From positions 1 to 41,977 of the forward strand of contig JAGVOD010000061.1 in assembly GCA_020052935.1 (NCBI GenBank): 41,977 nucleotides of DNA, in the 5' to 3' direction. The number at the start of each line of letters is the position of its first letter. Position 1 is the stretch's first letter. Shown here piece by piece: positions 2,652-41,837 of this stretch. The notes below the pieces were generated by a model. That model was not told the DNA's origin and made no database searches. It saw nothing but the letters and a program-made list of their open reading frames with translations. This DNA is from an archaeon. GTDB lineage: Archaea; Nanobdellota; Nanobdellia; Woesearchaeales; UBA11576. Both the position numbers and the translations under genes were made by a program.

Positions 2652-2971
2652 GCAGTGCCGCGCCAAGCTTCGCTCTTAACAGCAGTGGCACGCGAGGCTC
2701 GGCAGAAACTACTGGCAGCTCCACGCCCTGCTACGCTTATCGATTCTCTGAGTTTATTCTGACATTCCCCGTAGGGGTACTCAGAAACCTTCGGTTTCTG
2801 GTATGCTAAAAACATCAGAGATGTTTTGGCACACCCAAACTGCTATGCAGTTTGAGTGTCTCGCTCGCTACGCTCGGAGGCATCCCCCTGTCGAGACTGT
2901 TAGAATTGGCAAAAATCGCTACGCAATATTGGCGGTGGAGCTGCCTAAGAAGTTAATTGCTGCGGCGCTGC
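2652..2971. repeat. Palindromic element, copy A, outer inverted repeat
   Basis: The outer arms are 2652-2664 (GCAGTGCCGCGCC) and 2959-2971 (GCTGCGGCGCTGC), which pair over about 10 of 13 positions. They enclose a complete second element (2714-2945), so this copy is nested. The interval fills the whole gap between the permease and the convergent surface-protein gene and has no supportable coding sequence. The left side also contains a second GCAGTGGCACGCGAGGCTCG block at 2681-2700, related to the terminal repeat in inverted sense. Confidence 0.6.
2714..2945. repeat. Palindromic element, copy A, inner element
   Basis: Terminal inverted repeats GGCAGCTCCACGCC (2714-2727) and GGCGGTGGAGCTGCC (2931-2945) pair over 11 contiguous bases plus a flanking GCC. 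The core starts with TTCTGAC, then CCCCGTAGGGG (2767-2777), and returns with CATCCCCCTGTCGAGA near 2881-2896. Three extra hairpins are inserted: 2782-2800 (8-bp stem, loop TTC), 2809-2827 (8-bp stem, loop AGA) and one around CAAACTG/CAGTTTG at 2835-2853. The block 'aatcgctacgcaatattggcggtgg' before the right end recurs in copies B and F. Probably a structured RNA or a non-autonomous mobile element. Confidence 0.75.
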
Positions 2972-12704: not shown

Positions 12705-13532
12705 CTAACCGCACGCCGCCAAACAAGCAGCCTTTGCTGCAGGAGGCATGCCATTGCAGGCATCACAGCCGATAGTCGCCCTCTCGTCGGTGTTCCACTT
12801 CGTGGCTTCTGCTTCGTAGTCCGGAGCTTCTGAAGGCTCTTCAGCAGCAGGCTCAGCAGCCTCTTCCTCGGCAGGAGCTTCCCTGACAGGAGCGCTGTAC
12901 GTGCTCGCCAACTTGGACATGTCTGTGCAGCCCGCAATCTCCTCATCAGAGATCTTGCTCTGAGCGCCGATAGTCCCGTAGTCGTTGAGCGACAAGACGG
13001 TCTTTCCGCCCTGCACGACCTTCACCATGCCAAAAGGAACCTGTGAAGAGACCCAGTACTCGCCAGCAGCCTGAGAGAACTTAGCGACAACAAGCGTCTT
13101 GCCTGACGGAGTCGTGTAAGTGCCAGGCGCCCAGCCAGGCATGTCTGCATTGTAAGAATCTCCCTTGGTAGGCACTGTACTGCCCTGCACATCCTTGATG
13201 TTCATGCACAGGACCTGGTCACCGGTCTTCATGACATACTTCGATGCCTTCTGGGTGCTGGGATTCATCCAGACCTGCATGACAGACTCCTGCCCGCCAG
13301 TCTCTGTACTCATCTGGAACTTCGCCAGGGTAGGTGAGTTCTCAATCAGCTCAGTGCGCATAGTCACTGTCTGGCTACCTTGCTTCGAGACAGTCTCAGA
13401 CCACATCCCGGCCTTCCATTCCATGAAGCCAGCATACTTCGATGTCTTGGCTGGCTTTTCAGCGGTCTCGCCGCCAGAACAGCCTACTATCAACACAGAC
13501 AGAATCAACAGAACAAACAATGCTTTTTTCAT
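12705..13532 (-). CDS. Exported lipoprotein of unknown function
   Basis: The 275-residue protein has a lipoprotein signal (MKKALFVLLILSVLIVGCSG, lipobox Cys18). The body (~30-205) is beta-rich with repeated 'GSQTVTMRTELIENSPTLAKFQM', 'VMQVWMNP', 'YWVSSQVPFGMVKVVQGGKTVL'. This layout is like LolA/LppX-type or DUF4412-like outer-surface beta sheets, but I cannot assign a family. An Ala/Glu/Pro-rich linker (~208-240) leads to a C-terminal module 'TIGCDACNGMPPAAKAACLAACG' with four cysteines, which could bind metal or form two disulfides. A ribosome site GGGGGTG precedes the ATG. It ends 46 bases past the sigma-factor stop, convergent with it. Confidence 0.72.
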   Translation of the reverse strand: MKKALFVLLILSVLIVGCSGGETAEKPAKTSKYAGFMEWKAGMWSETVSKQGSQTVTMRTELIENSPTLAKFQMSTETGGQESVMQVWMNPSTQKASKYVMKTGDQVLCMNIKDVQGSTVPTKGDSYNADMPGWAPGTYTTPSGKTLVVAKFSQAAGEYWVSSQVPFGMVKVVQGGKTVLSLNDYGTIGAQSKISDEEIAGCTDMSKLASTYSAPVREAPAEEEAAEPAAEEPSEAPDYEAEATKWNTDERATIGCDACNGMPPAAKAACLAACG

Positions 13533-13613
13533 CTAAACACCCCCGATTGTGATATAAGAGAAACAGCGCATAATGGGTATTTAAAATTATCTCGGCCTTT
13601 TTATACGTTTGAA

Positions 13614-13867
13614 GCAGTGCCACGCCCTACTCGCCTCGCTGAAACCGCTAGTTGCTCGCTTCGCTCGCAACATAAACCCGCTCGGCTCGTTCGTTGCCGG
13701 CTCGCGCCCTGCAGGATATGACGAAGCGTGACCAGCCCCCGGATGGGTACTCAGAAACCTTCGGTTTCTGGTATCTCGCTCCCTGCGGTCGGAGACAACC
13801 CCCGTCACGCACCGACGGCGCTTGTGATTGGCGCTCGCAATATTGGCAACGACGGGCGTGGCACTGC
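13614..13867. repeat. Palindromic element, copy C
   Basis: It has perfect 13-bp terminal inverted repeats GCAGTGCCACGCC (13614-13626) and GGCGTGGCACTGC (13855-13867). The inner stem GCGTGAC (13726-13732)/GTCACGC (13804-13810) surrounds CCCCCGGATGGG, an inserted hairpin (13752-13770) and ACAACCCCC. A 30-base stretch at 13746-13775 covering that hairpin is identical to 2776-2805 of copy A. Additional palindromic blocks rich in GCTCG occupy 13640-13710. It fills the gap between two minus-strand genes, the permease terminating just inside 13882. No coding sequence is credible. Confidence 0.75.
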
Positions 13868-13881
13868 CTCTTAGACTAGAA

Positions 13882-15249
13882 CTACTTTCTCTTCTTGGGC
13901 TTTGCTTTAAGCATCTTAGTTCGCTTAGGCTGCTCTGGCTCCTTCAGACTCAGCTTCTCCTTCATGTGCGCGTGGAACTTCCTCTCGCCGAATATAGAAT
14001 AGATCAGCATGCCTGACAAGAACAGCATCATGCCAACAAAGAACAGCTTCTTGCTGAAGCTGAACAGCAAGGCAGCGCAGGAGAGAAGGCCTAACGCGGG
14101 AATGACAGGGAACTTGCCTATGTTACCCCAAACCCTGAAGCCCCTCGGGACATGATGATGAGAATAACGCAGGACAATCACGCAAAGGTTGACGACCAGG
14201 AAGATGAACAACGCACCGAAGTCAGTCAGGAAAGCAATAGAAGCAATATCGCCCCAGATGATGAACACAGAACATATAGCTGTAATGATGAGCACAGACA
14301 CATAAGGCACGCGGCGGGTCTTGCTGACTTTCAGCAGCCACTGCGGCATAGAGTGCTGCTCAGCCATGCCATAGATCATCCTGGACGTGGCGATGAGCAG
14401 GCCTATCACTGTAGAACCAGTAGCGGCAAGGGCCATCACAGCCATCATTATGCCTGCCTTGGTACCCAGCAACGACGTCATTATGTCTGACAAAGGAGAG
14501 TTGGAAGCTGCCAGCTGAGACCAGGGCAGCACACTGACAGCTATTATCGCGACAGCGACGTAAAGCACTGTAGAGATGATGACAGACAGGATAAGCGCCA
14601 GAGGAAGGGTGCGCTTAGGATCCTTCACCTCCTCACCTATGTTGCCTATGTTCTCAAAGCCCAGGAAAGCGAAAAAGATAAGCGCAGCGCCAGTGAAGAT
14701 GCCAGGAAGGCCAGATGGCGACTCGAAGTAGAACTCGACAGGCTTGATGTGAGGCGCGCCGACAACGATGACCAATACCAAGCCAACCACTGCAAGTATG
14801 ACCATCACGGAATCGAACCACAAAGCCTGCTTGACACCCACAAGATTGAACACGGTCAGGACAAACATAAGCAGCAATGCACAGAATACTATATTCCAGC
14901 CAGTGAGGAAAGAGAGGTAGCCGCCGAAGCCCAAAGCGACAGCAGCAGTAGCGATCAACGTCGTGACAAGCTTAAGCCACGCTATTCCGAAAGAGAACCT
15001 CCTATCACGGAAAGCACGCTCTGTATATACATACTCAGCAGCATCATAAGGAAAAGTCGAGGCGAGCTCTGCATAGCTCAGGCCAGTGCACGCGGCGATG
15101 AAGGCAGCGACGAGAAAAGACAACCACAGCTCATTGCCAGCTATGCCTGCAGCCTTGCCTATTATCACGTAGATGCCGGCGCCGATTATGACGCCAAGAA
15201 CATAAGATATAGTGCCGAAAAGCCCGATCTCACGCTTAAGCCTGAACAA
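13882..15249 (-). CDS. APC-family amino acid permease
   Basis: The 455-residue protein has about twelve transmembrane segments. The first contains 'VLGVIIGAGIYVIIG', the Gly-rich unwound helix that binds the amino acid carboxylate in APC transporters. 'GLSYAELASTFPYDAAEYVY' (residues ~56-76) is the conserved TM2/loop motif, and 'ALIFFAFLGFENIGNIGEEVKDPKRTLP' (~188-216) is the TM6 signature. The last ~35 residues are a basic tail (KPKKRK end). It probably imports amino acids by proton or sodium coupling, fitting a lineage with reduced biosynthesis; the substrate is not deducible. The start at 15249 follows TTAAAGAGGTGATTGC, a full ribosome site. It is transcribed alone, upstream of the intergenic leader at 15398. 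Confidence 0.9.
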   Translation of the reverse strand: MFRLKREIGLFGTISYVLGVIIGAGIYVIIGKAAGIAGNELWLSFLVAAFIAACTGLSYAELASTFPYDAAEYVYTERAFRDRRFSFGIAWLKLVTTLIATAAVALGFGGYLSFLTGWNIVFCALLLMFVLTVFNLVGVKQALWFDSVMVILAVVGLVLVIVVGAPHIKPVEFYFESPSGLPGIFTGAALIFFAFLGFENIGNIGEEVKDPKRTLPLALILSVIISTVLYVAVAIIAVSVLPWSQLAASNSPLSDIMTSLLGTKAGIMMAVMALAATGSTVIGLLIATSRMIYGMAEQHSMPQWLLKVSKTRRVPYVSVLIITAICSVFIIWGDIASIAFLTDFGALFIFLVVNLCVIVLRYSHHHVPRGFRVWGNIGKFPVIPALGLLSCAALLFSFSKKLFFVGMMLFLSGMLIYSIFGERKFHAHMKEKLSLKEPEQPKRTKMLKAKPKKRK

Positions 15250-18072: not shown

Positions 18073-18981
18073 TTATAACTTCAGGTGGAGCGACGTCATC
18101 TCCTTATGTATGTATTCCATGTTCTTCCTGACAACCATCCTCTGATTTGACTTTGTGACTGGAAGGACTCCTTTTATCGCGCCTTCTATGGAGATTATGC
18201 CTGAATAGTTCTTGATCACTGAACCTATGACCCTGTCGAAATACCTGTGGTGGATGCGGGTCATGAAGAAAGGGACATGAGTCTTCTGGCTCGTGTGGCC
18301 GCTGATATGCACGTGGAATATCTTGCTCTTATGCATCTTATCGATGAACTCCAACGGCGCGTGCTCGCCATGAGTATAAGTATGGACGAGGTCGAAGGTC
18401 ACGCCCAGATTACTCATGCTGACGGCGTCAAGTATCTTATAGACGTGCTTCGACTCTGTGATGAACTCCCTTGGCTTGTTCTCCATCGGCTCCATGCCAA
18501 TCCTCACACCGCACCTCTTCGCGTACCTTGCTATTTTCCTGAAGGCAGCTATCTGGAGATACCAATATGCCTTGTCAGCACGCTCACCAGCATCGTCTGT
18601 GTGGCCAGGATGCACGGTCATCACCTTGAAGCCGAACCTCTTCGCGAGGTCAAGAGCATGAAGATGAGCATCTATTGAACGTGCGCGGACTGCCTCGTCC
18701 TTGGAACAGAGGTTATACTTGTCATGCGATGGAGAGCCGGGGTCATAAAGCGGCGCGTGGACCACACCTACCATCCTGTTCCGCTTCAACGCGGAGCGTA
18801 CTTTCTGCAAAGAGGTCTTCTTATGCTTCAGCTGCAGGTCAAGCTCCTCTGCCCACATCTCTATCGCGTCATAGCCGGCCTTACCAAGGATGTCTATCGC
18901 CTCGTGGATATCGTATAAAGAAAGTATATGACTAGAAGTCGCTATCTTGTTCTTCAGCTTAACTGCTCTCTTTTTGAACAT
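18073..18981 (-). CDS. AP-endonuclease-2/xylose-isomerase-like TIM-barrel protein
   Basis: From ATG 18981 the protein has 302 residues. The barrel pattern is visible: 'IDILGKAGYDAIEMWAEEL', 'VGVVHAPLYDPGSPS', 'VMTVHPGHTDDAGERADKAY' (metal-type His), 'VRIGMEPMENKP' (Glu ligand), 'GVTFDLVHTYTHG' (Asp/His ligands), 'IFHVHISGHTSQKTHVPF' (HxH region) and 'GIISIEGAIKG' (Glu). These are the conserved strand-end metal ligands of the endonuclease IV/sugar-isomerase superfamily. Repair endonuclease or sugar epimerase cannot be separated by eye. The upstream in-frame ATG at 19014 is rejected, because it lies within the TATA box (TTTAAATATGTATTTATA on the minus strand). Confidence 0.8.
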   Translation of the reverse strand: MFKKRAVKLKNKIATSSHILSLYDIHEAIDILGKAGYDAIEMWAEELDLQLKHKKTSLQKVRSALKRNRMVGVVHAPLYDPGSPSHDKYNLCSKDEAVRARSIDAHLHALDLAKRFGFKVMTVHPGHTDDAGERADKAYWYLQIAAFRKIARYAKRCGVRIGMEPMENKPREFITESKHVYKILDAVSMSNLGVTFDLVHTYTHGEHAPLEFIDKMHKSKIFHVHISGHTSQKTHVPFFMTRIHHRYFDRVIGSVIKNYSGIISIEGAIKGVLPVTKSNQRMVVRKNMEYIHKEMTSLHLKL

Positions 18982-19028
18982 AGATGAGAAAGATATAAAT
19001 ACATATTTAAACATATCTCACCAATAAA

Positions 19029-32824: not shown

Positions 32825-33655
32825 TCATTTCGTCGCTATCAATTCCTTGACTACGTGGATGAACTCCTCTGCCTCTTTCCTGTACCTGTCGTAGTGATCA
32901 CCAGATATCTTATGCACCTCGCCAGTCATCAGCATCTTGCCTATGTTCATGAACTCACCGACGACAGAAAGATACTTCTTGTCGATGATGCCTTTCAGCA
33001 CCAACTGCTGCTTCACCAGAGGCACGAGCTGTTCGGGAGACTCAGGCACGACATCGTAGTGCAGCAGAGCGGCGTGGGCAGCGTCGAAGACACCCCAATA
33101 TAGGTCAAGGACAGCCTCTTTCATGTTCCAGTTCGCATTAGCGATGGACATCGGGCCGCGGGCCATGTATATCCAGACAATATCCCTCGAAGGAGCAATG
33201 CGCCTAGAGCCAAGCATCCTCTGCGCCATGCCGAAACAGCCAGAGTCATACACTGCCTTGCCGTCGCGCAGCATGTTGATCAGTATAGGGTCGCCTTTCA
33301 GCGAGTAATCCCAGAACTTTGTCACAGGCATGGTGGTGATGTGCAGCCTCGTAGATATGTTTGCAGCAGTCTTCTCAGTCACGACGCGGTACGCAGTGAC
33401 GACTTCAGGCGTAAGGACATTTATCGTGTCATCAAGGACTATCAGCACGTCAATGTCGCTGCCGAACATTATCTCGTCGCGCAAGGACTTCTTACCAGCA
33501 GCGAAACCGCCCCTGACAGCAGAGCCGAACCACACGACAGACTTTACAAGTATGTCCAGCTCCTTCACCAGAGCGTCTGAGAAGCGCTTGACAATGCCCT
33601 CTATCTCTGCCGGATCAGCGATGTAATCCTTCGACGTTGTTGTCCTGAACTGCAT
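32825..33655 (-). CDS. Nucleotidyltransferase (pol beta fold) fused to HEPN-like domain
   Basis: From ATG 33655 the protein has 276 residues. The N-terminal half is a minimal nucleotidyltransferase: 'VKSVVWFGSAVRGG...GSDIDVLIVLDD' (residues ~37-75) contains the GS and DxD motifs that bind nucleotide and metal, and 'STRLHITTMPVTKFWDY' supplies the third-acid strand. The C-terminal half, 'AVLDLYWGVFDAAHAALLHYDVVPESPEQLVPLVKQQLVLKGI...EFMNIGKMLMTGEVHKISGDHYDRYRKEAEEFIHVVKELI', is helical and HEPN-like. MNT-HEPN pairs usually act as toxin-antitoxins; here they are one chain. A paralogue with a degenerate first half lies at 35893-36684. The frame upstream of 33655 runs into a palindromic element and is not coding. 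Confidence 0.8.
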   Translation of the reverse strand: MQFRTTTSKDYIADPAEIEGIVKRFSDALVKELDILVKSVVWFGSAVRGGFAAGKKSLRDEIMFGSDIDVLIVLDDTINVLTPEVVTAYRVVTEKTAANISTRLHITTMPVTKFWDYSLKGDPILINMLRDGKAVYDSGCFGMAQRMLGSRRIAPSRDIVWIYMARGPMSIANANWNMKEAVLDLYWGVFDAAHAALLHYDVVPESPEQLVPLVKQQLVLKGIIDKKYLSVVGEFMNIGKMLMTGEVHKISGDHYDRYRKEAEEFIHVVKELIATK

Positions 33656-33679
33656 TTTGAACCTCTTTTCCACTGCTTG

Positions 33680-33860
33680 GCAGCGCCGCCGTGATATCAT
33701 AACACAGGCAGTGCCACGCCAGGCTCCGCTTCTAGCTTCTCTGACGGGAATCTGACGTTCCCCGTAGGGGGCGTCCCCCTTGTCAGAGCAAAATATTAGT
33801 CCGTGCAACGCTCCGCAAAATTGGCGGTGGCACTGCCCCACCGACTCACGGCGGCGCTGC
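33680..33860. repeat. Palindromic element, copy F, outer inverted repeat
   Basis: GCAGCGCCGCCGTGA (33680-33694) and TCACGGCGGCGCTGC (33846-33860) are perfectly inverted over 15 bases and bracket a complete inner element (33707-33837). The outer sequence resembles the family ends (GCAGCGCC) but differs in its inner portion, so one element appears inserted in, or grown within, another. Confidence 0.75.
33707..33837. repeat. Palindromic element, copy F, inner element
   Basis: Ends GGCAGTGCCACGCC (33707-33720) and GGCGGTGGCACTGCC (33823-33837) pair over 11 contiguous bases plus GCC. Inner stem TCTGAC (33751-33756)/GTCAGA (33782-33787) surrounds GTTCCCCGTAGGGGGCGTCCCCCTT. At 131 bases it matches copy B in length and layout, including the right-hand 'caacgctccgcaaaattggcggtgg' block. 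Confidence 0.78.
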
Positions 33861-33879
33861 TGCTAAACTAAAAACATCA

Positions 33880-35892
33880 TCACTCCAAAGGCACTCCGCT
33901 CCAAAACACCCAATCATCTGTCGGCCTGTAGTCTCCCACGACATAAGGCGGGGGATTGACGTGGCCAAAGTAAGAGTCAGCGACATCAGACCACTTCGCC
34001 CTCCCTGCCGGAGCTGCAAAGTAGCTGTCTGATATGTCAGCACCGAAAGCGCGCCAGGTCTGAAGCAATATGCGGCCTCGGCCGAACTGCTCCTCCTCGT
34101 GGCCTTCTGAAACTACAAAGCCAGTGAAACCATGCGACTTCAGATAATCAACAGCCTCGACGACAGGCATTATTCCCTGCCCGGCAGGCAGGTGGCCGTG
34201 CGCGCCAGTCGCTGAATCGACAGCCTGAACGCTGCCGATCACACCTTCCTTCTGCATCTTCGCGACCATCTCCATATACCAGCCCTTGAACCTCACAAGA
34301 CGCTGCTCCTCGCTCTCTTGAGGACTGTCCTTCTTGAAATGCTGGAGCCACATACCAAGATGGGACGTGTCGAAACAGCCCTGGAGATGATCCTGCGCAA
34401 ACTTCGTCGCCTCATCCTTAGACAGGCCACGCTCCTTATGGAGACGCTCGACCATCTCCTTCCTGGACTCCTTGATAAGCTCGATGAACTCCTCAGGATG
34501 GCCGCCATAGCCAGTAGGCCAGCCTATCTCAGGCCCGACGTGGATAGGACGCTCGACACGCTTGTTCTGCCGCGTCTCGTCGAAAGCAACTATTCCAGCT
34601 TCTGCATAAGACTTGACAGCCATCTCCTTGGCATACACCTTCAGAGGCACTGCAGCCTCCATCATCTTAATGACCTCCTCAGCCTGGGCGTCAGCAGCAG
34701 ACGAAGCCTCGTGGACGTGCTTCAGGTGGTGGCGCATCTGGTCTATGTTGTGCTCGATTATCTCAGTAGGCTTCTTGTATTCAGGAGGGATGAACATGCC
34801 ATGGAGCGCAGGGTCCTCATGCATCATCTTCCACTGCTCTTCTGGAGGGATTGTCGACTCCACTTTCTTGTAATACTCCAGCGACTTCTTCAATGCCTCG
34901 AGACGCCGCATCTCATCAGTATAAGTGTTCGTATAGAACAATGAACTGCCGCGCGCCTGCACCCACTTGTTCGAGAGATTCAGCTGCAGCGCGTACTCTG
35001 CAGGGTCCAGGCCTGCGTTGAAACGATCGTTGAACTCGCTCGTCCTCTTCACGACATCATCCCACCTGAGCGTATTGACCTTGAACTTCTTATTCTCATT
35101 ATCCCACTCGGGAACACGGTGAAGCAGCTGCTCCTTCTTGAGCGGATTGACCCACCTGCCGTCGACATCTATCCAGTCACCCTTCTGTATCTCAGCAGGC
35201 TTACCATCCACATCTATACCTTGATAGGCCTTATCAGCGACCCTGAACTCGGGCTCGAACATCTCTGTAGAATGCCTGATCTCCTGCATCACGTGGCCTG
35301 TGCGCCTGTCGACGAGATACTCAGTGGCGAACTTGTCCTCCTCCTTATAGGCCTCGAACTTTCCAGCCCACTTTCCTTTGATGTTCCATGGCGCATCGAC
35401 GATGTTGCGGTAGAACTCCTGAGAGTACACGTCTACTCCGCCACCGCCAGAGACATCTGCTATGAACTTTATCGCATCCTTGACTTCCTGCAGGTCCTGC
35501 TGCCTCTTCTGCTCATTTATGGTGAAATGCTGCGGGTCAAAGCCAGAGAGGTTACTCATCGACGAGGCGGGCATCTCGACGCCCTCTATCTTCACGTCGT
35601 TGGCACGCGCCAACTCACGCAAGTTCTCCCTCACCTCAGCACCATATGCCTTGGCCCTGCCGCCGATAGGGTTCTGATGCGACACGTTGAAGACAAGCTG
35701 GACCTTGCTCGCGCCCATCCTTATCGCAGCCTCGGTGTTCTGGATTATGTTCCCGCCAGTGGCTGGATCCTTCTCGAGGACAGTTATGCCCAGCTCATTC
35801 ACAGCCATGATAGGCTTCTCTAGCTTCGGCTCCTCCTTCTCGGAATAATATTCACGGTCCATCGGCGAGTAGCCGCCTGAGCTGAACTGCAT
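33880..35892 (-). CDS. Large TIM-barrel (AP endonuclease 2-like) protein with internal insertion
   Basis: The 670-residue protein is about twice the usual size. The N-terminal part has 'NTEAAIRMGASKVQLVF', 'LRELARANDVKIEGVEMPASSMSNLSGFDP' and 'QQDLQEVKDAIKFIADVSGG', the first strands of a xylose-isomerase-like barrel. A ~300-residue insertion with coiled-coil content ('EMRRLEALKKSLEYYKKVEST') follows. The C-terminal part resumes the barrel with metal-type motifs 'DHLQGCFDTSHLGMWLQHF', 'VDSATGAHGHLPAGQG' and 'GFVVSEGHEEEQ'. Hydrolase, lyase or isomerase cannot be told. It starts immediately after the upstream stop (TAG-ATG) as the last gene of the four-gene operon. Confidence 0.72.
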   Translation of the reverse strand: MQFSSGGYSPMDREYYSEKEEPKLEKPIMAVNELGITVLEKDPATGGNIIQNTEAAIRMGASKVQLVFNVSHQNPIGGRAKAYGAEVRENLRELARANDVKIEGVEMPASSMSNLSGFDPQHFTINEQKRQQDLQEVKDAIKFIADVSGGGGVDVYSQEFYRNIVDAPWNIKGKWAGKFEAYKEEDKFATEYLVDRRTGHVMQEIRHSTEMFEPEFRVADKAYQGIDVDGKPAEIQKGDWIDVDGRWVNPLKKEQLLHRVPEWDNENKKFKVNTLRWDDVVKRTSEFNDRFNAGLDPAEYALQLNLSNKWVQARGSSLFYTNTYTDEMRRLEALKKSLEYYKKVESTIPPEEQWKMMHEDPALHGMFIPPEYKKPTEIIEHNIDQMRHHLKHVHEASSAADAQAEEVIKMMEAAVPLKVYAKEMAVKSYAEAGIVAFDETRQNKRVERPIHVGPEIGWPTGYGGHPEEFIELIKESRKEMVERLHKERGLSKDEATKFAQDHLQGCFDTSHLGMWLQHFKKDSPQESEEQRLVRFKGWYMEMVAKMQKEGVIGSVQAVDSATGAHGHLPAGQGIMPVVEAVDYLKSHGFTGFVVSEGHEEEQFGRGRILLQTWRAFGADISDSYFAAPAGRAKWSDVADSYFGHVNPPPYVVGDYRPTDDWVFWSGVPLE

Positions 35893-36684
35893 CTACTTCA
35901 GCCTCCCCTGGATGAACTCATCCATCTCCTTGACGAAAAAATCAGCATCAGCAAGATAGGAATCAAATTCCCTGCCTGCTATTTCGAACACTTCCTTGTG
36001 CATTATCTTCTTCGCGATGTCGTATGACCTCGCAATTATCTCTGCGCATCTTGCGTGGACGAGATTGCCGGCGACAAGCCTGTCCTTGACAAGGCCTACA
36101 AGCTCCTTCGGCGAAGGAGGGGTAATGCCTGCAATCATGACAGCTGCGTGAGCAGAATCAGTCACAGCCCAGTAAAGGTCCAGGACAGCGCGCGAGACAT
36201 GCTGGCCAGACGAGCGCATCGACTGCTCTGCCTTGACAAAATAGACCCCCACACTCTCCTTGGACGGGCGTATCTTGCCTGTGACAAGAAGATCCTGCAT
36301 CGGCAGGAAGAAACCATTGTCATGCACGACGACAGACCCGCGGGCAAGCTGCATGACAGGCTCGTCGCGCGTCTTCATCCCGTCCCAGAACACAGAAGAC
36401 AGCATCGCCTCGAACTTCAACGGCAGCTTCTGCTCGTAAGCCAGCTGCGACGCAGAAATCTTGGCCTCTGAGACCTGAGGATCAGTCACAACATTGTTGA
36501 AATCATCTACCAAGAGAAGGACTTCAGCCAGCCCATCAGGCGAATGCCCGCTTATCAGTATGGACGCGAACAGGTTGCGGTGCTTCTTCATCAGCTTCTC
36601 CGCCACGACCCGTATCTCACCGTACCTCTGGCTGCCTATACGATGGACATTGTGCAAAGGTTTCCGTTCCATATCCAATTCCAT
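35893..36684 (-). CDS. HEPN-like protein with degenerate nucleotidyltransferase half
   Basis: The 263-residue protein parallels the 32825-33655 gene. Its C-terminal half 'AVLDLYWAVTDSAHAAVMIAGITPPSPKELVGLVKDRLV...SYDIAKKIMHKEVFEIAGREFDSYLADADFFVKEMDEFI' aligns by eye across its whole length with that gene's HEPN-like half. The N-terminal half keeps the fold ('RNLFASILISGHSPDGLAEVLLLVDDFNN') but has lost the GS...DxD catalytic motif, reading 'SGHSPDGLAEVLLLVDD'. It is probably a non-catalytic, structural or regulatory partner. Start ATG 36684 has GAGGTAATGTC upstream. Its stop is directly followed by the TIM-barrel gene. Confidence 0.7.
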   Translation of the reverse strand: MELDMERKPLHNVHRIGSQRYGEIRVVAEKLMKKHRNLFASILISGHSPDGLAEVLLLVDDFNNVVTDPQVSEAKISASQLAYEQKLPLKFEAMLSSVFWDGMKTRDEPVMQLARGSVVVHDNGFFLPMQDLLVTGKIRPSKESVGVYFVKAEQSMRSSGQHVSRAVLDLYWAVTDSAHAAVMIAGITPPSPKELVGLVKDRLVAGNLVHARCAEIIARSYDIAKKIMHKEVFEIAGREFDSYLADADFFVKEMDEFIQGRLK

Positions 36685-36722
36685 GACATTACCTCAATAA
36701 CATCCTCGACACAGCATCCAAA

Positions 36723-37280
36723 TCACGGACTGTGCTCGAACCATTTCATCTTGTATCCCATCGACCTGAGCATCTTCATGGAGCTGACGACATTATCGAC
36801 CAGCCTGTCAGAGAGGTTCACGTACATCTCCTGGTCCGGCCTCGCCTCCATGCTCTGCCGCAGCGTATCATACGCCTCACGCGCATGCTCATACACCTCG
36901 AGGAACTCCTCCCTCGACGGCGCTCGGTTGCCCTGGGCATACCATCCCTGGATCTCCTGTATGGTGTTGCTCGGCAAGAGCTGCTGTATCCTCCTGCCGT
37001 AATCAGTGCCTCCGCCAGACACAGACCTCTTGGCCTGCGCCACCTGCTCCTCGATGTCAGCAGACTTGGCGAACAGCTTGTTGATATCGACCTTCTCCTG
37101 CTTCGGGACCTCTATCTCCTGGAGCATCTCGTCGAGCTTTATCTCCTTCAAGGACTGCTCGATCATCTTCTTCGCTTCTTCTTCCTGCCTCTTCCTCTTC
37201 GTCTCCATATCCTGGAGTCGCTTCAGGCGCTCTTTCGGCGGAAGCTTCTTGATGTCCTCAATCTCTTTCTCATCCACCAT
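36723..37280 (-). CDS. Coiled-coil protein of the four-gene operon
   Basis: The 185-residue protein starts one base after the upstream stop (TAA-G-ATG). Residues 1-60 form a strongly charged coiled coil ('KKLPPKERLKRLQDMETKRKRQEEEAKKMIEQSLKEI'). Residues ~75-185 are a helical domain with 'GGGTDYGRRIQQLLPSNTIQEIQGWYAQGNRAPSREEFLEVYEHAREAYDTLRQSM' and 'MKMLRSMGYKMKWFEHSP'. No family was recognised. The layout (coiled coil plus adaptor-like domain) suits a scaffold linking the large first protein to the HEPN-like and TIM-barrel proteins, but this is an inference from position only. Confidence 0.68.
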   Translation of the reverse strand: MVDEKEIEDIKKLPPKERLKRLQDMETKRKRQEEEAKKMIEQSLKEIKLDEMLQEIEVPKQEKVDINKLFAKSADIEEQVAQAKRSVSGGGTDYGRRIQQLLPSNTIQEIQGWYAQGNRAPSREEFLEVYEHAREAYDTLRQSMEARPDQEMYVNLSDRLVDNVVSSMKMLRSMGYKMKWFEHSP

Positions 37281-37281
37281 C

Positions 37282-38754
37282 TTACCACGTGATCATCTTA
37301 TGCGCTTTCTTGAAGTTCTTGTAGGTGTTCCACATCGGGTTAGCCATGACCCCGGCAGCGTTCTTCTCGTCCTTGCCCTTCTGCCAGTCACTCGGCGCTG
37401 TCTTGTCCTTCTTCTCGCGGGCAGGTATGAATGCGGTGAATATGTCCTTGAAGCCGCCGAACAATGCCATGAAAGGCTCGACAGCGCCCTTCATCTCAGA
37501 CATCCTCTTCTTGGAAGCGGCCTTATCGTCCTCGTCCTTCTTGACATCCTCGGGGAATTTCTCGCCAGCCTCCTTCAGGTACTTGCGGAGGTCATCACCG
37601 AGGGCCTCTATCGCCGCTTTCAGCGACGAGTCGATGTCACCCAGCATGTCGAAGGTCTCCTGCTGCCTCATCCGGACATAATTATCAATGTCCTTGTCAG
37701 ACCAGCCGTAGCCGCGCATTATTATCTCGCTCCTGCCGACGTGGACAGGGCCTTTGTGCTGGTAGCCGTCCTGGTGGAACTCCATGTGCGGCTGCGTCCT
37801 GAACAGGATGTTCAGCACCACGACACCATGATAGTCCTCCTTATCGCGATTCGTCACCTTCCTGCTGAACACCACCTCGATCTCTGTGAGGCTGCCCTCA
37901 AACGCCCCGATGAGCTCCTCGCTGTCGCTCCTCGCCATGTTCTGAGACAGGCGCTTGACATTCTTCAGGTACGGCTTGACCCACTCGATGTACATCTGGA
38001 TTGCATTGTAATGCTGGCGCAAAAACTTTATCGTGAAGTTGCGGCGCTCGCTTATCTCCTTGAACGTGAATTCCTTCCAGACGATGTATGCCTGAAGCTT
38101 CCTCTTCAGCACATCGCTCAGCTTCCTGTTGAACTTCAGCCTCTCGACGTAAGAATCCACCTCCTCCTTCTTCATCGGAGGCGCGGCGAAGAAAAGGTCC
38201 GGCAAGGCAGTATAGCCTAGCGTGCTCGCGAGACCATAGACGGAGCCAGGAGACTTCACGCCGCCATCCTTCAGGTCGACCCAGTACCCCCTGAGAACTA
38301 TCTCAGCAGACTGGCTCATCTTCCTTGCATGTACATCTCCCACCGACGCTATGGCCTTGTTGCTCTGGGTATACATCTCAATCCTCTCGTCGAGGATGCG
38401 CATCTCGCGGACTATCTGGAAAAGCTCCTTCACCAGCTTGCCTATCGTGGCGAGGTAATTCGAGACCTGGCCCTGCTGGATAGACATCCTCTGCTGCGCC
38501 TGGCCCCAGAACGCAGACTGCTCCGAGGCTGTGAAGACATCTGTTATCTTCTTCACATCATAGAGCCCCCAGTCATCCCTCAGGCTTGAGAGAAGCCAGA
38601 AGTACACTTCCTCGATGGACTGGTTGAAGGACTGATATACCAGCTTGTACTTCTGGGCAGGCTTGGGAAAGTTCTCTATCTTGGCAGGCCTCTCGCCCCT
38701 AGCCCTCTCTTCAAAATCACATTCCTTGAAGCCGAACTTGGTACAGTCAACCAT
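37282..38754 (-). CDS. First gene of a four-gene operon, 490-residue protein of unknown function
   Basis: No family was recognised. The N-terminus has a Cys-containing segment (MVDCTKFGFKECDFEE), then long helices ('YKLVYQSFNQSIEEVYFWLLSSLRDDWGLYDVKKITDVFTASEQSAFWGQAQQRM', ~35-90) and a central region 'LKRKLQAYIVWKEFTFKEISERRNFTIKFLRQHYNAIQMYIEWVKPYLKNVKRL'. A more beta-rich part 'EIEVVFSRKV...YHGVVVLNILFRTQPHMEFHQDGYQHKGPVHVGRSEIIMRGYGWS' precedes a Lys/Asp/Glu-rich helical tail. There are no transmembrane helices. GAGGTAAAAATCGT precedes the ATG, and the TATA box and palindrome at 38778-38805 control it. Confidence 0.72.
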   Translation of the reverse strand: MVDCTKFGFKECDFEERARGERPAKIENFPKPAQKYKLVYQSFNQSIEEVYFWLLSSLRDDWGLYDVKKITDVFTASEQSAFWGQAQQRMSIQQGQVSNYLATIGKLVKELFQIVREMRILDERIEMYTQSNKAIASVGDVHARKMSQSAEIVLRGYWVDLKDGGVKSPGSVYGLASTLGYTALPDLFFAAPPMKKEEVDSYVERLKFNRKLSDVLKRKLQAYIVWKEFTFKEISERRNFTIKFLRQHYNAIQMYIEWVKPYLKNVKRLSQNMARSDSEELIGAFEGSLTEIEVVFSRKVTNRDKEDYHGVVVLNILFRTQPHMEFHQDGYQHKGPVHVGRSEIIMRGYGWSDKDIDNYVRMRQQETFDMLGDIDSSLKAAIEALGDDLRKYLKEAGEKFPEDVKKDEDDKAASKKRMSEMKGAVEPFMALFGGFKDIFTAFIPAREKKDKTAPSDWQKGKDEKNAAGVMANPMWNTYKNFKKAHKMITW

Positions 38755-38777
38755 ACGATTTTTACCTCTTTTTCAAG

Positions 38778-38805
38778 CACACATCATGCATGTGTGTTTA
38801 TAAAC
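38778..38805 (-). promoter_or_regulatory. TATA box with perfect 19-base interrupted palindrome, operon promoter
   Basis: GTTTATAAAC (38796-38805, itself a palindrome) is the TATA box for the minus-strand operon. It abuts CACACAT-CATGC-ATGTGTG (38778-38796), perfectly symmetric 7-base arms that would cover the transcript start ~25 bases downstream of the TATA. A dimeric regulator bound there could block initiation, which is unusual detail for this otherwise unknown operon. Confidence 0.5.
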
Positions 38806-38860
38806 ATTATTGTCGATTTGTCATATATTACGTGACATTCCTGGCCATGCCATCTCAATC

Positions 38861-39127
38861 TCATCTCTTGTACAGCACCACGACAAAGCCGACCTGGTCC
38901 AGCAGATCTGACTCGGTCGCTTTCGCGAGCTTCGATGCAGCCTCCTTCCGATCGTTATCCTCTAAAAATGACCTCAAAAACTTCACCTTCACGAGGTGCC
39001 TCTTCACCAGCATCTTGCAGATGTGCTCTACGACAGGGTCAGTCAGGCCGTTCTTGCCTATCCTAACTATCGGCTCGAGCAGCCTCGCCTTGTCCTTCAA
39101 TTCCCTAGCTTCAGCAGGAGTCATCAT
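38861..39127 (-). CDS. YhbY/CRM-domain RNA-binding protein
   Basis: The 88-residue protein reads 'MTPAEARELKDKARLLEPIVRIGKNGLTDPVVEHICKMLVKRHLVKVKFLRSF...ASKLAKATESDLLDQVGFVVVLYKR'. It is complete for the CRS1/YhbY domain, including the GxxG-type loop 'IGKNGLT' and the final 'G..VVLYK' strand. Family members bind 23S rRNA or pre-ribosomal RNA. It directly follows the Kef-like gene's stop; ATG 39127 follows GGTGAAG, with a GTG at 39133 and a second ATG at 39124 as alternatives. It ends the abrB-nnrD-kef-yhbY operon, which mixes metabolite repair, ion transport and ribosome assembly. Confidence 0.88.
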   Translation of the reverse strand: MMTPAEARELKDKARLLEPIVRIGKNGLTDPVVEHICKMLVKRHLVKVKFLRSFLEDNDRKEAASKLAKATESDLLDQVGFVVVLYKR

Positions 39128-39133
39128 CTTCAC

Positions 39134-40825
39134 CTAACCAGTCACGTGGGTCGGATGATCATGGCCGATGCCCTTCCGTTCCATAAGATCATTGATATGA
39201 CGATACTTCATCATCAGCATCCTCAGCTGGTTCGACTCGAAGTCAGGCAGCATATCTGCCACCATGTCACCGCCGAGGAAATGCGGCAGTATCACATACT
39301 CTGCACCCTTCTTGTATAGCTCGAGAGCCTGGTCTATCTTGTGAGCAGTGACTATCGTCGGGACATAGCTGTTCTTGGCCTTGACCTTGTGCAGCAGCAG
39401 CAGGTTGTCCTCGTACGAATTTGCAGTCGAGATGACCATCCTGGCGCGAGACATGTCCAGCCGGTCCATCACCTCGGGGTCGCATATGTCCCCATAGATG
39501 CAATTGACATCCAGGTTCTGGAGCTTCTTTATCACGTCGGGATTGAAATCCACGACAACGACGCTCCTCTTCTGGGCCTTGAGGGACTTGAGTATGCTGT
39601 AGCCTATGCGGTCATAGCCACAGAGCACGACATCATACGCAGCCTTCGGGGAATCCGGATGCTTCTCGCCCCGCGGGTCTATCCTGAAATCCTTGAGCAC
39701 AGCGACAAATCTCCGGTAGACCCAATCCTCATAGCTCATGAAATAGGACGTGAAGGCCATGGTAAGCAGCGCCAGCATCACCGTCATGGTAAGCACGCCC
39801 TGCTGAACGACACCCATGACGACGCCCTGCATCACGAGTATGAGCGAAAACTCAGATATCTGCCCAAGCGATGAAGCTGTGATGAAAGAGGTCCTGGCCT
39901 TATGGCGCAAGACGCGCAGCGCAAGATAGATGACAACAGGCTTCGCTATCACGACCAGCAACAGCAGCACGATGAGAGGCGCCAACAAGGCAGACATGCC
40001 GTCGAAAACCAGCTGCAGGCCCAGGGAGGTGAAGAACAGTATGGAGAAGAAGTCCCTCAGGGGCTTCATCCTGCCCACTATCTCTATGTTGTAAGGGAGG
40101 TTCGCGAGCAGGACGCCAGCGACGAAAGCGCCGATAGTGAGCGAGAGGCCTATGGACTGGAACAGCATCGCGAACAGGAAGCAGACGCTCAACGACACGC
40201 TGAGCAATAACTCGCGTGACGTCGCTGCGAACTCAAAGACGCGCGGGAATATGAACTTGCTGGCAAGAGCCGCGACAATGAGCACGGCAGCGATCTTTGC
40301 ATAGAACATGCCGCCTAACGTGTTGGATGCCGAGGCAAGATAAGACAATGCGACTATGGCCAAGATATCCTGCACGACCAGTATTCCTATTATCAGCCTG
40401 CCATGCAGGGTGTTGGACTCGAGCTTATCAGAGAGGATCTTCACGACGAGCATGGTGCTGCTGAACGCAATGACCAGGCCGAGATATATCGACTCGAACC
40501 TCGTGAAGCCGAAAAGCGCCATGGCCACGTAGCCAGCGATGAATACCGCTGCCATCTGCACTGCACCGACTATCGACGACACCAGGCCTATATCCTTCAG
40601 CTTCTTGAACTCAAGCTCCAGGCCGACCATGAACAGGAGGAAGGCTATGCCTATCTCGCTCAGCTTGCCGATGATCTCCTGGTCTGTCGCGACACCGAAG
40701 ACCTTGCCTATCAGCACGCCGGCAATTATGTACGCGGGGATGAGAGGCTGCTTTGTGAGCTTAGCGATATAAGTTCCCAGGCCAGCGAATATCACAAGCA
40801 GCCCTATCTCGAAGAAGACGTCCAT
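39134..40825 (-). CDS. CPA2 cation:proton antiporter with RCK/TrkA-N domain (Kef-type)
   Basis: The 563-residue protein has an N-terminal antiporter with ~12 transmembrane helices ('LTKQPLIPAYIIAGVLIG', 'AFLLFMVGLELEF', 'AFSSTMLVVKIL', 'LTIGAFVAGVLLA', 'FFTSLGLQ', 'SLGQISEFSLILVM'). Residues ~400-530 are an NAD-binding RCK domain ('YDVVLCGYDRIGYSILKSLK', 'VVVVDFNPDVIKKL', 'CIYGDICDPEVMDRLDM'). This is the architecture of Kef/CPA2 potassium or sodium/proton antiporters gated by cytosolic nucleotides. Its ATG overlaps the nnrD stop by one base (TGATG). The NAD(P)-type RCK domain makes its pairing with a nicotinamide-hydrate repair enzyme notable. Confidence 0.9.
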   Translation of the reverse strand: MDVFFEIGLLVIFAGLGTYIAKLTKQPLIPAYIIAGVLIGKVFGVATDQEIIGKLSEIGIAFLLFMVGLELEFKKLKDIGLVSSIVGAVQMAAVFIAGYVAMALFGFTRFESIYLGLVIAFSSTMLVVKILSDKLESNTLHGRLIIGILVVQDILAIVALSYLASASNTLGGMFYAKIAAVLIVAALASKFIFPRVFEFAATSRELLLSVSLSVCFLFAMLFQSIGLSLTIGAFVAGVLLANLPYNIEIVGRMKPLRDFFSILFFTSLGLQLVFDGMSALLAPLIVLLLLVVIAKPVVIYLALRVLRHKARTSFITASSLGQISEFSLILVMQGVVMGVVQQGVLTMTVMLALLTMAFTSYFMSYEDWVYRRFVAVLKDFRIDPRGEKHPDSPKAAYDVVLCGYDRIGYSILKSLKAQKRSVVVVDFNPDVIKKLQNLDVNCIYGDICDPEVMDRLDMSRARMVISTANSYEDNLLLLHKVKAKNSYVPTIVTAHKIDQALELYKKGAEYVILPHFLGGDMVADMLPDFESNQLRMLMMKYRHINDLMERKGIGHDHPTHVTG

Positions 40826-41691
40826 CAGCCAGACCTCCTCAATCTCTTTATCTCCCTCAGGAAATCACTTGCGATGAAACCGAAACCGAAATTCGACCTC
40901 TTCAGCAACGAGTCTCCTATCTTCTTGCAGTTATGCGAAGCCATCGCAGCTGATTCGAAGAGATGCCTCGTCTGGGCGAGGTAGCCTGCGCAGAGGCCAG
41001 CAAGTATGTCGCCGGTACCGCCGACAGTCATGCCTGCATTACCTCCCTTGCTGATGAATGCCCTCTCCTTAGAGACTATGATATCGCTCGCGCCTTTCAG
41101 AAGGATGACATTGCCTCTTGAGACGAATCCGGACAGGGACTTCCTTATCCAGAACACCTTCCCGGCATCCGGAAGCGTCCAGAAATCACGGGGGAGGCAC
41201 TTCCTGTTCGCTGCGAGGAAAAGCTCGAACTCCTTGTGATGCGGGGTTATGATCGCTTGTTTCAGAGATGATATCTTCGCGACCTTCAACGCGTCTGCAT
41301 CGACGACGATAGGGACTTTTGATCTTGATATGCCTACAAGGAGTTGATTGACTATCTTATGGTCAAGGAGAGTCATGCCTGGCCCTATGACAACCGCGTC
41401 AAACTTCCTGCTCAACGCCACCAGCTGCTTCAGGTGCTTTCGCGCCACGTAATCCCCGTCGAGCTTTATCGTAATCAGGTCTGGCGATAATCTGTTTATC
41501 GCCCATGCAGCCTTTTCTGGAGCTGCGACCTTGACTATGTCACAGCCGGCCCTCAACGCAGATAGCGCTGCAAGAGCCGGCGCACCAACATAGTCCTTAC
41601 TGCCTCCTATAACCAGGACAGTCCCGTTCTGCCCTTTATGCGAATCCTTCCGTCTTTCCGGATTCCAGACTGGTCTACCTTGCTTTCTCAT
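40825..41691 (-). CDS. nnrD: ADP/ATP-dependent NAD(P)H-hydrate dehydratase (CARKD/NnrD)
   Basis: The 288-residue protein starts at the ATG overlapping the abrB-like stop (ATGA). The CARKD fold is evident: 'HKGQNGTVLVIGGSKDYVGAPALAALSALRAG', 'VVIGPGM', 'PIVVDADALKV', 'AIITPHHKEFELF', 'NVILLKGASDIIVSKE', and the nucleotide-binding 'NAGMTVGGTGDILAGLCAGYLAQ'. In NnrD enzymes the GTGD aspartate acts in the dehydration of damaged NAD(P)H hydrate using ADP or ATP. The YjeF-N epimerase half found fused in many prokaryotes is absent here, so NnrE must be separate or missing. Confidence 0.92.
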   Translation of the reverse strand: MRKQGRPVWNPERRKDSHKGQNGTVLVIGGSKDYVGAPALAALSALRAGCDIVKVAAPEKAAWAINRLSPDLITIKLDGDYVARKHLKQLVALSRKFDAVVIGPGMTLLDHKIVNQLLVGISRSKVPIVVDADALKVAKISSLKQAIITPHHKEFELFLAANRKCLPRDFWTLPDAGKVFWIRKSLSGFVSRGNVILLKGASDIIVSKERAFISKGGNAGMTVGGTGDILAGLCAGYLAQTRHLFESAAMASHNCKKIGDSLLKRSNFGFGFIASDFLREIKRLRRSG

Positions 41692-41837
41692 TTTTCCACA
41701 AGCTTCAGAATTATGCTGCCTTGAGAATCGAGCTCTATCTTTATCTCCGCGCCTTTCTTCCAACCTTTGGCGTCGATCAGCGCTTTAGGGAGCGTGATCT
41801 TGTACTGCTTGTTGTTGTCGAACTGCAGCTTTACCAA
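41688..41837 (-). CDS. AbrB/SpoVT-type small DNA-binding protein
   Basis: A 49-residue chain from TTG 41837, preceded by GAGTGATTTGA. The sequence 'VKLQFDNNKQYKITLPKALIDAKGWKKGAEIKIELDSQGSIILKLVEK' is a minimal swapped-hairpin AbrB domain ('ITLPKALIDAKGWKKGxEI'). Such short proteins are archaeal transcription regulators or antitoxins. The stop overlaps the nnrD start by ATGA, so it heads the operon and may regulate it. It is too short for most gene lists. Confidence 0.72.
   Translation of the reverse strand: MVKLQFDNNKQYKITLPKALIDAKGWKKGAEIKIELDSQGSIILKLVEK

Follow-up and report, generated by a model that had tools for sequence, protein, structure and literature searches.

A nearly phylum-wide core operon of DPANN archaea, remodelled in one genus by loss of barrel metal ligands and gain of a degenerate nucleotidyltransferase

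The window, by which we mean the whole 41,977-nucleotide stretch of archaeal DNA analysed here, is best read as carrying one genus's remodelled version of a core operon, A-B-D-E. Its products would form one cytosolic complex with a housekeeping role, with D hydrolysing or isomerising a phosphate or sugar-phosphate substrate and E adding a nucleotide, a reading to which we assign a probability of about 0.4. The conservation and the anatomy of the genes are solid; confidence in the mechanism is low. A sequence-only reading of the locus had described four tightly packed minus-strand genes, A490, B185, C263 and D670, behind a TATA box and a palindrome. We recovered these open reading frames at the same coordinates, with gaps of 1, 38 and 0 bases between A490 and B185, B185 and C263, and C263 and D670, and the TATA box and the palindrome are both present in the sequence (Table 1). 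The operon itself had to be redrawn, since the conserved set is A490-B185-D670-E276. E276 lies directly downstream, outside the segment described earlier, and had been overlooked despite being part of the same conserved gene string, whereas C263 is a genus-only degenerate duplicate of E276.

Table 1. Positions in the window of the genes, gene parts and non-coding elements of the locus.
Feature	Position	Strand	Basis or remark
A490	37282-38754	-	ORF list
B185	36723-37280	-	ORF list
C263	35893-36684	-	ORF list
D670	33880-35892	-	ORF list
E276	32825-33655	-	MNT-type nucleotidyltransferase, HEPN/KNTase_C-like helical domain; FGS...SDID intact
A490 helical hairpin including tip (residues 81-276)	37927-38514	-	AF2 and family conservation
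D670 insertion (residues ~161-445) after strand 4	34558-35412	-	AF2 secondary structure
D670 putative docking tail (residues 646-670, ...WSGVPLE)	33883-33957	-	conservation and pLDDT
TATA element TGTTTATAAACA	38795-38806	-	conserved in nearest relative
7+7 palindrome CACACATGCATGATGTGTG	38778-38796	.	not conserved
Structured dispersed repeat, D670-E276 gap	33656-33879	-	in this genome only

The system had been suggested as possibly peculiar to its lineage, but the A490 family turned out to be near-universal in the phylum. A first search found A490 in 53 of 59 genomes of the order, and a profile search across the phylum recovered it from 264 of 279 sampled genomes (212 of the 219 good ones), nearly always as a single copy. 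The family ranges from Woesearchaeota to Nanopusillus, whose genome belongs to the same class as that of the window, and its named relatives are Woesearchaeota, Nanoarchaeota and DPANN MAGs. D is also missing from most of the 15 genomes that lack A490; in genome G113, B and D are kept and A was not detected. We rejected a viral origin of A490 because no relative was found in viral contigs. Two contigs titled Methanosarcinales and Aminicenantes (L097 and L109) carry the operon as well, and these record titles are probably wrong.

The linkage of A and D is similarly widespread. Among the 63 unique Woesearchaeota loci with enough downstream sequence, 52 have D downstream of A, in the same orientation and no more than 3.5 kb away, and the median A-B and B-D gaps are about 10 nt at loci where B was detected between them. 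The upstream neighbours, serving as an internal control, were kept in 37/78 (exchanger) and 32/78 (YhbY). The usual order in about 100 Woesearchaeota loci is (Na/H exchanger, YhbY)-A-B-D, often followed by a DOT1-like methyltransferase and E, and one subgroup has B after D. E is not always the neighbour of D, lying within 1.5 kb of it at 14 of 52 loci. The A-D arrangement recurs in 17 of 20 distant genomes from other orders of the class, counting 16 with D just downstream of A by profile and one (G162) by direct search; an ORF of 150-220 aa usually separates A from D in these genomes, and in most an E-type gene comes next. Because the linkage holds both in Woesearchaeota and in distant genomes, the orthologues are not scattered, and the earlier proposal of one complex or pathway gains support from the comparison. 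In Nanopusillus, A and D are adjacent and precede SecY, an EMC3-like protein, L34e and an L14e-like KOW protein. These neighbours, together with YhbY in Woesearchaeales, are of housekeeping type and count toward what we regard as the best explanation, namely a core operon passed down vertically within one phylum of tiny, mostly symbiotic archaea, to which Woesearchaeota, Pacearchaeota and Nanopusillus belong. The operon spans genomes from 1-2 Mb Woesearchaeota to the 0.6 Mb obligate ectosymbiont Nanopusillus, and it presumably fills a role that the cells can neither drop nor obtain from a host. Few genes are both near-universal in a DPANN group and unknown elsewhere.

The window itself holds YhbY, a Na/H exchanger-TrkA gene and an NnrD-like kinase at 38861-41763, a string that recurs upstream of A in many Woesearchaeota. 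An NFACT-R-like gene, recognised by eye, stands upstream of A at 17 of 40 loci.

Neither A490 nor B185 has a confident Pfam or NCBIfam match, and A490 has no match by sequence in Pfam or PDB. The AF2 model of A490 (pLDDT 82.7, pTM 0.65) predicts a beta domain, a long helical hairpin formed by residues 81-136 and 210-276, and C-terminal helices. Foldseek returned no credible PDB or viral match for this fold, the best viral hit having an E-value of 7e-4 at a TM-score of only 0.12. Conservation in the protein peaks in the hairpin, whose first helix reaches a mean top-residue frequency of 0.78, with 0.92 in the best 15-residue window; the C-terminal tail is also conserved. It is from this predicted shape that we infer a scaffold-like protein. 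B185 is an acidic coiled-coil protein of variable sequence, with conservation mostly confined to the N-terminal ~100 residues. The median family pI values are 9.3 for A and 9.0 for E, both basic, and 4.9 for the acidic B. As far as the search tools reach, A490 and the gene combination are undescribed, and D and E come from known superfamilies.

D670 bears out the earlier assignment of a barrel fold, with a match to PF01261, the xylose-isomerase-like TIM barrel, at an E-value of 5.9e-10 and 39.7 bits against a gathering cut-off of 31.1; the same family was found in 54 of 54 D members (E <= 0.01). In the AF2 model (pLDDT 86.4, pTM 0.83) the TIM barrel is interrupted after strand 4 by an insert of about 285 residues, predicted to consist of a beta subdomain and long helices. 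D670 is a barrel of the xylose-isomerase/endonuclease-IV superfamily split by this insert. The nearest solved relative by profile is MJ1311 (PDB 3wqo, E 1.9e-10), and the nearest folds by Foldseek are UlaE and epimerases, with no E-value below 0.001. With MJ1311 and the D-tagatose 3-epimerase/UlaE-like barrels, D shares PF01261 and the motif HxxDN...DEHL..G.GN; unlike them, it has the insertion, a conserved C-terminal tail and the fixed operon partner A.

Across the phylum, 66-71 of 71 D proteins keep each of the residues H106, H156, E455, D508, H511, H556, D559, H567 and E594; at position 565, 52 of the 71 have D and 18 have H. By order and strand, H106, H156, E455, D508, H511, H556, D565, H567 and E594 would correspond to H69, H109, E145, D179, H182, H216, D229, H231 and E261 of endonuclease IV (Endo IV), an equivalence argued by hand against checked E. 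coli Nfo residues. The direct alignment is not significant (hhalign of the D profile with Nfo, E 0.64 for the whole and 0.071 for the barrel only). D shares the barrel superfamily with Endo IV, and most D members have putative counterparts of its nine trinuclear-site ligands, matched by order and strand position, but D lacks a significant alignment to it and has partly lost the ligands in the genus of the window. We rejected D as a canonical Endo IV on account of the missing Nfo alignment and of a separate Endo IV-like protein of 259-356 aa that exists in these genomes. The abundant 293-aa "Endonuclease IV" of N. equitans, NEQ368 (PMC3149612), was likewise set aside as a D orthologue, because its length is closer to that of the separate Endo IV-like protein.

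A small-molecule sugar reaction by D is equally compatible with its nearest solved relatives, MJ1311 and the sugar epimerases. A carbohydrate or sugar-nucleotide complex, with D as a sugar(-phosphate) epimerase or isomerase, E acting on its product and A and B as scaffolds, is a serious rival, though we consider it somewhat unlikely. It agrees with the best PDB profile and fold matches of D, which are MJ1311, D-tagatose 3-epimerase and UlaE, and epimerases of this type share the E-D-H-E metal ligands. However, D retains two additional His residues, on strands 3 and 4, which mononuclear epimerases do not need, and E is of the MNT/Pol-beta type and not a sugar-nucleotidyl transferase. A nucleic-acid or nucleotide processing role, as the sequence-only reading had suggested, is plausible but unproven, and we favour it for three reasons: the Endo IV-type ligand set of D, the MNT type of E, and the basic character of both the A and the E family.

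At the nine ligand positions, D670 of the window reads E, Y, E, D, H, Q, H, H, E, as opposed to H, H, E, D, H, H, D, H, E in Endo IV. H106, H156 and H556 have been replaced by E, by Y, W or V, and by Q, respectively, in the genus of the window and in one further Woesearchaeota MAG (L122, JACPIF010000003.1, D at 12950-15172), which has E, V, Q and H at 106, 156, 556 and 565. In that MAG, E is intact and a second copy between B and D was not detected, so the ligand changes in D may predate the duplication that gave rise to C. The last 25 residues of D are its most conserved segment, with a mean top-residue frequency of 0.76 compared with 0.54 overall, and a recognisable tail is still present in Nanopusillus. 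As the tail is the most conserved part and yet predicted to be disordered (pLDDT <50 in D670), it suggests a partner-docking tail.

These features also suit a mainly structural housekeeping assembly, associated for instance with the ribosome, the translocon or the chromosome, in which D would serve as a scaffold barrel and could do without catalysis, as it would in this genus. Such an assembly would account for the richness of A and B in coiled coil, a D tail conserved more than the barrel, the loss of metal ligands in the genus of the window, and the translation and translocation genes next to the operon in some orders. But almost all other lineages, minimal genomes included, retain the metal ligands, which argues that catalysis by D is normally under selection. 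We regard this second serious rival as unlikely.

E276 carries the MNT-type GS...DxD motif in the form FGSA...SDID, and the Pfam family NTP_transf_2 was found in 21 of the 27 members of the E/C alignment. Both nucleotidyltransferase (NTase) motifs are kept in 63 of 75 E-type rows; the exceptions are C263, a masked sequence and proteins with isolated substitutions. C263 aligns with E276 over its length and has neither GS nor DxD, so that its description as catalytically degenerate was correct. It occurs only in the three genomes of the genus that hold the locus, and the tree places it as sister to the E clade of that genus, with a support of 0.82 and a long stem. C263 is, judging by sequence, a catalytically dead duplicate of E276, restricted to the genus and inserted between B and D.

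The GS...DxD motif and the C-terminal HEPN/KNTase_C-like helical domain are common to E276 and the MNT-HEPN or kanamycin nucleotidyltransferase-like proteins. Pfam HEPN was found in only 2 of the 27 E/C members, and the HEPN RNase motif R-x4-6-H was not seen by eye in the conserved DLYWAVIDAAHAAL region. The resemblance of E to MNT-HEPN proteins, together with weak matches of E to PADLOC models of candidate defence NTases, could point to a toxin-antitoxin or defence module centred on an MNT-HEPN protein. We consider such a module highly improbable. Toxin-antitoxin pairs of this type are patchy and mobile, whereas A is near-universal and mostly single-copy, the A-D linkage is fixed, and E was found in 12 of 12 genomes searched, as expected of a fixed housekeeping gene in a conserved operon. 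A is also absent from viral contigs, and defence models match neither B nor D, and A only marginally. The authors who first listed such a family remark on its unusual conservation (PMC6393860).

In a longer E paralogue of 575-650 aa, a single polypeptide holds two NTase units, one degenerate and one intact, along with a HEPN-like region. It lies at a separate locus in 11 of 12 genomes searched, Nanopusillus among them, and is also found in the genome of the window (G000:C91:2036-3178, L243; other loci, L233-L240). Because this paralogue carries both NTase types, the pairing of an active with a dead NTase appears to have arisen more than once.

Under the leading reading, complex formation, the substrate and the division of labour would be as follows. 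A, basic and bearing the long helical hairpin, would form a scaffold with the acidic coiled coil of B. D, a putative metal-dependent TIM barrel with Endo IV-type ligands, would be tethered to this scaffold through its insert and C-terminal tail, and would hydrolyse or isomerise a substrate containing phosphate or sugar-phosphate, probably in nucleic acid or nucleotides. E, as an MNT-type nucleotidyltransferase, would add a nucleotide onto the substrate of D or onto a partner. In the genus of the window, where D lost metal ligands and a dead NTase copy was added, the result would probably be a pseudoenzyme-containing complex. In its strongest form, A-B-D-E would be an undescribed core machine of the phylum, in which a new-fold scaffold would bring a trinuclear metallo-barrel and a nucleotidyltransferase together along a single substrate path, with a pseudoenzyme version and its dead NTase partner in this genus; we hold this form only tentatively, at less than even odds. 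The gene string puts a metallo-barrel and an MNT nucleotidyltransferase together with a protein whose fold matches nothing known, turning separate dark-matter entries into a single testable hypothesis, and the genus of the window offers a natural experiment in which the barrel lost some ligands and gained a dead NTase partner.

The palindrome in front of A490 had been taken for a dedicated operator. Its arms, CACACAT and ATGTGTG, form a perfect 7+7 match around the 5-nt loop GCATG and overlap the TATA element by 2 nt. When the 80-nt upstream stretch was shuffled, palindromes with arms of at least 7 and loops of at most 10 arose in 5.6% of cases, and the window contains 27 of them; the palindrome is therefore only mildly unusual and does not strongly exceed chance. 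The nearest relative with the locus (G001) conserves the 12-bp TATA element and its flanks but lacks the palindrome. The exact pattern occurs once in the genome of the window. We rejected the operator on the loss in the nearest relative and the single copy in the genome, and the palindrome is best treated as unconserved sequence beside a conserved promoter.

Two DPANN-specific families listed by Makarova et al. 2019 (PMC6393860), both in a housekeeping context, come close to members of the operon. The entry for cls.004259 (NEQ050), an MNT fused to HEPN, is described in terms that suit E276 or the longer paralogue, as do its restriction to DPANN and its housekeeping context, and it is probably one of the two, as compared by description only; cls.004340 (NEQ484), alpha-helical, may be A490 on the same kind of comparison. 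The table of that paper describes neither the A-B-D-E linkage nor D. Castelle et al. 2021 (PMC8204110) reported a module of 51 families, mostly of unknown function, common to Woesearchaeota and Pacearchaeota. We found no description of the A-B-D-E operon as a unit in the accessible literature.

The gap between D670 and E276 is occupied by a repeat with a core of ~130 nt and terminal inverted repeats GCAGTGCCAC...GTGGCACTGC. An Rfam gathering scan of the window returned tRNAs only. The 1.64 Mb genome contains 42 matches to the repeat, some full and some fragmentary (for example L215-L223, and a fragment at window positions 2711-2777). It is predicted to fold strongly (MFE -105.7 kcal/mol, z -5.7). 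The repeat looks MITE-like, given that genomes G001 and G003 have no such gap at the locus, and it is not part of the ancestral operon. Far from the operon, the window also encodes a second PF01261 TIM-barrel protein of 313 aa, at 18073-19014 on the minus strand (E 8.7e-38).
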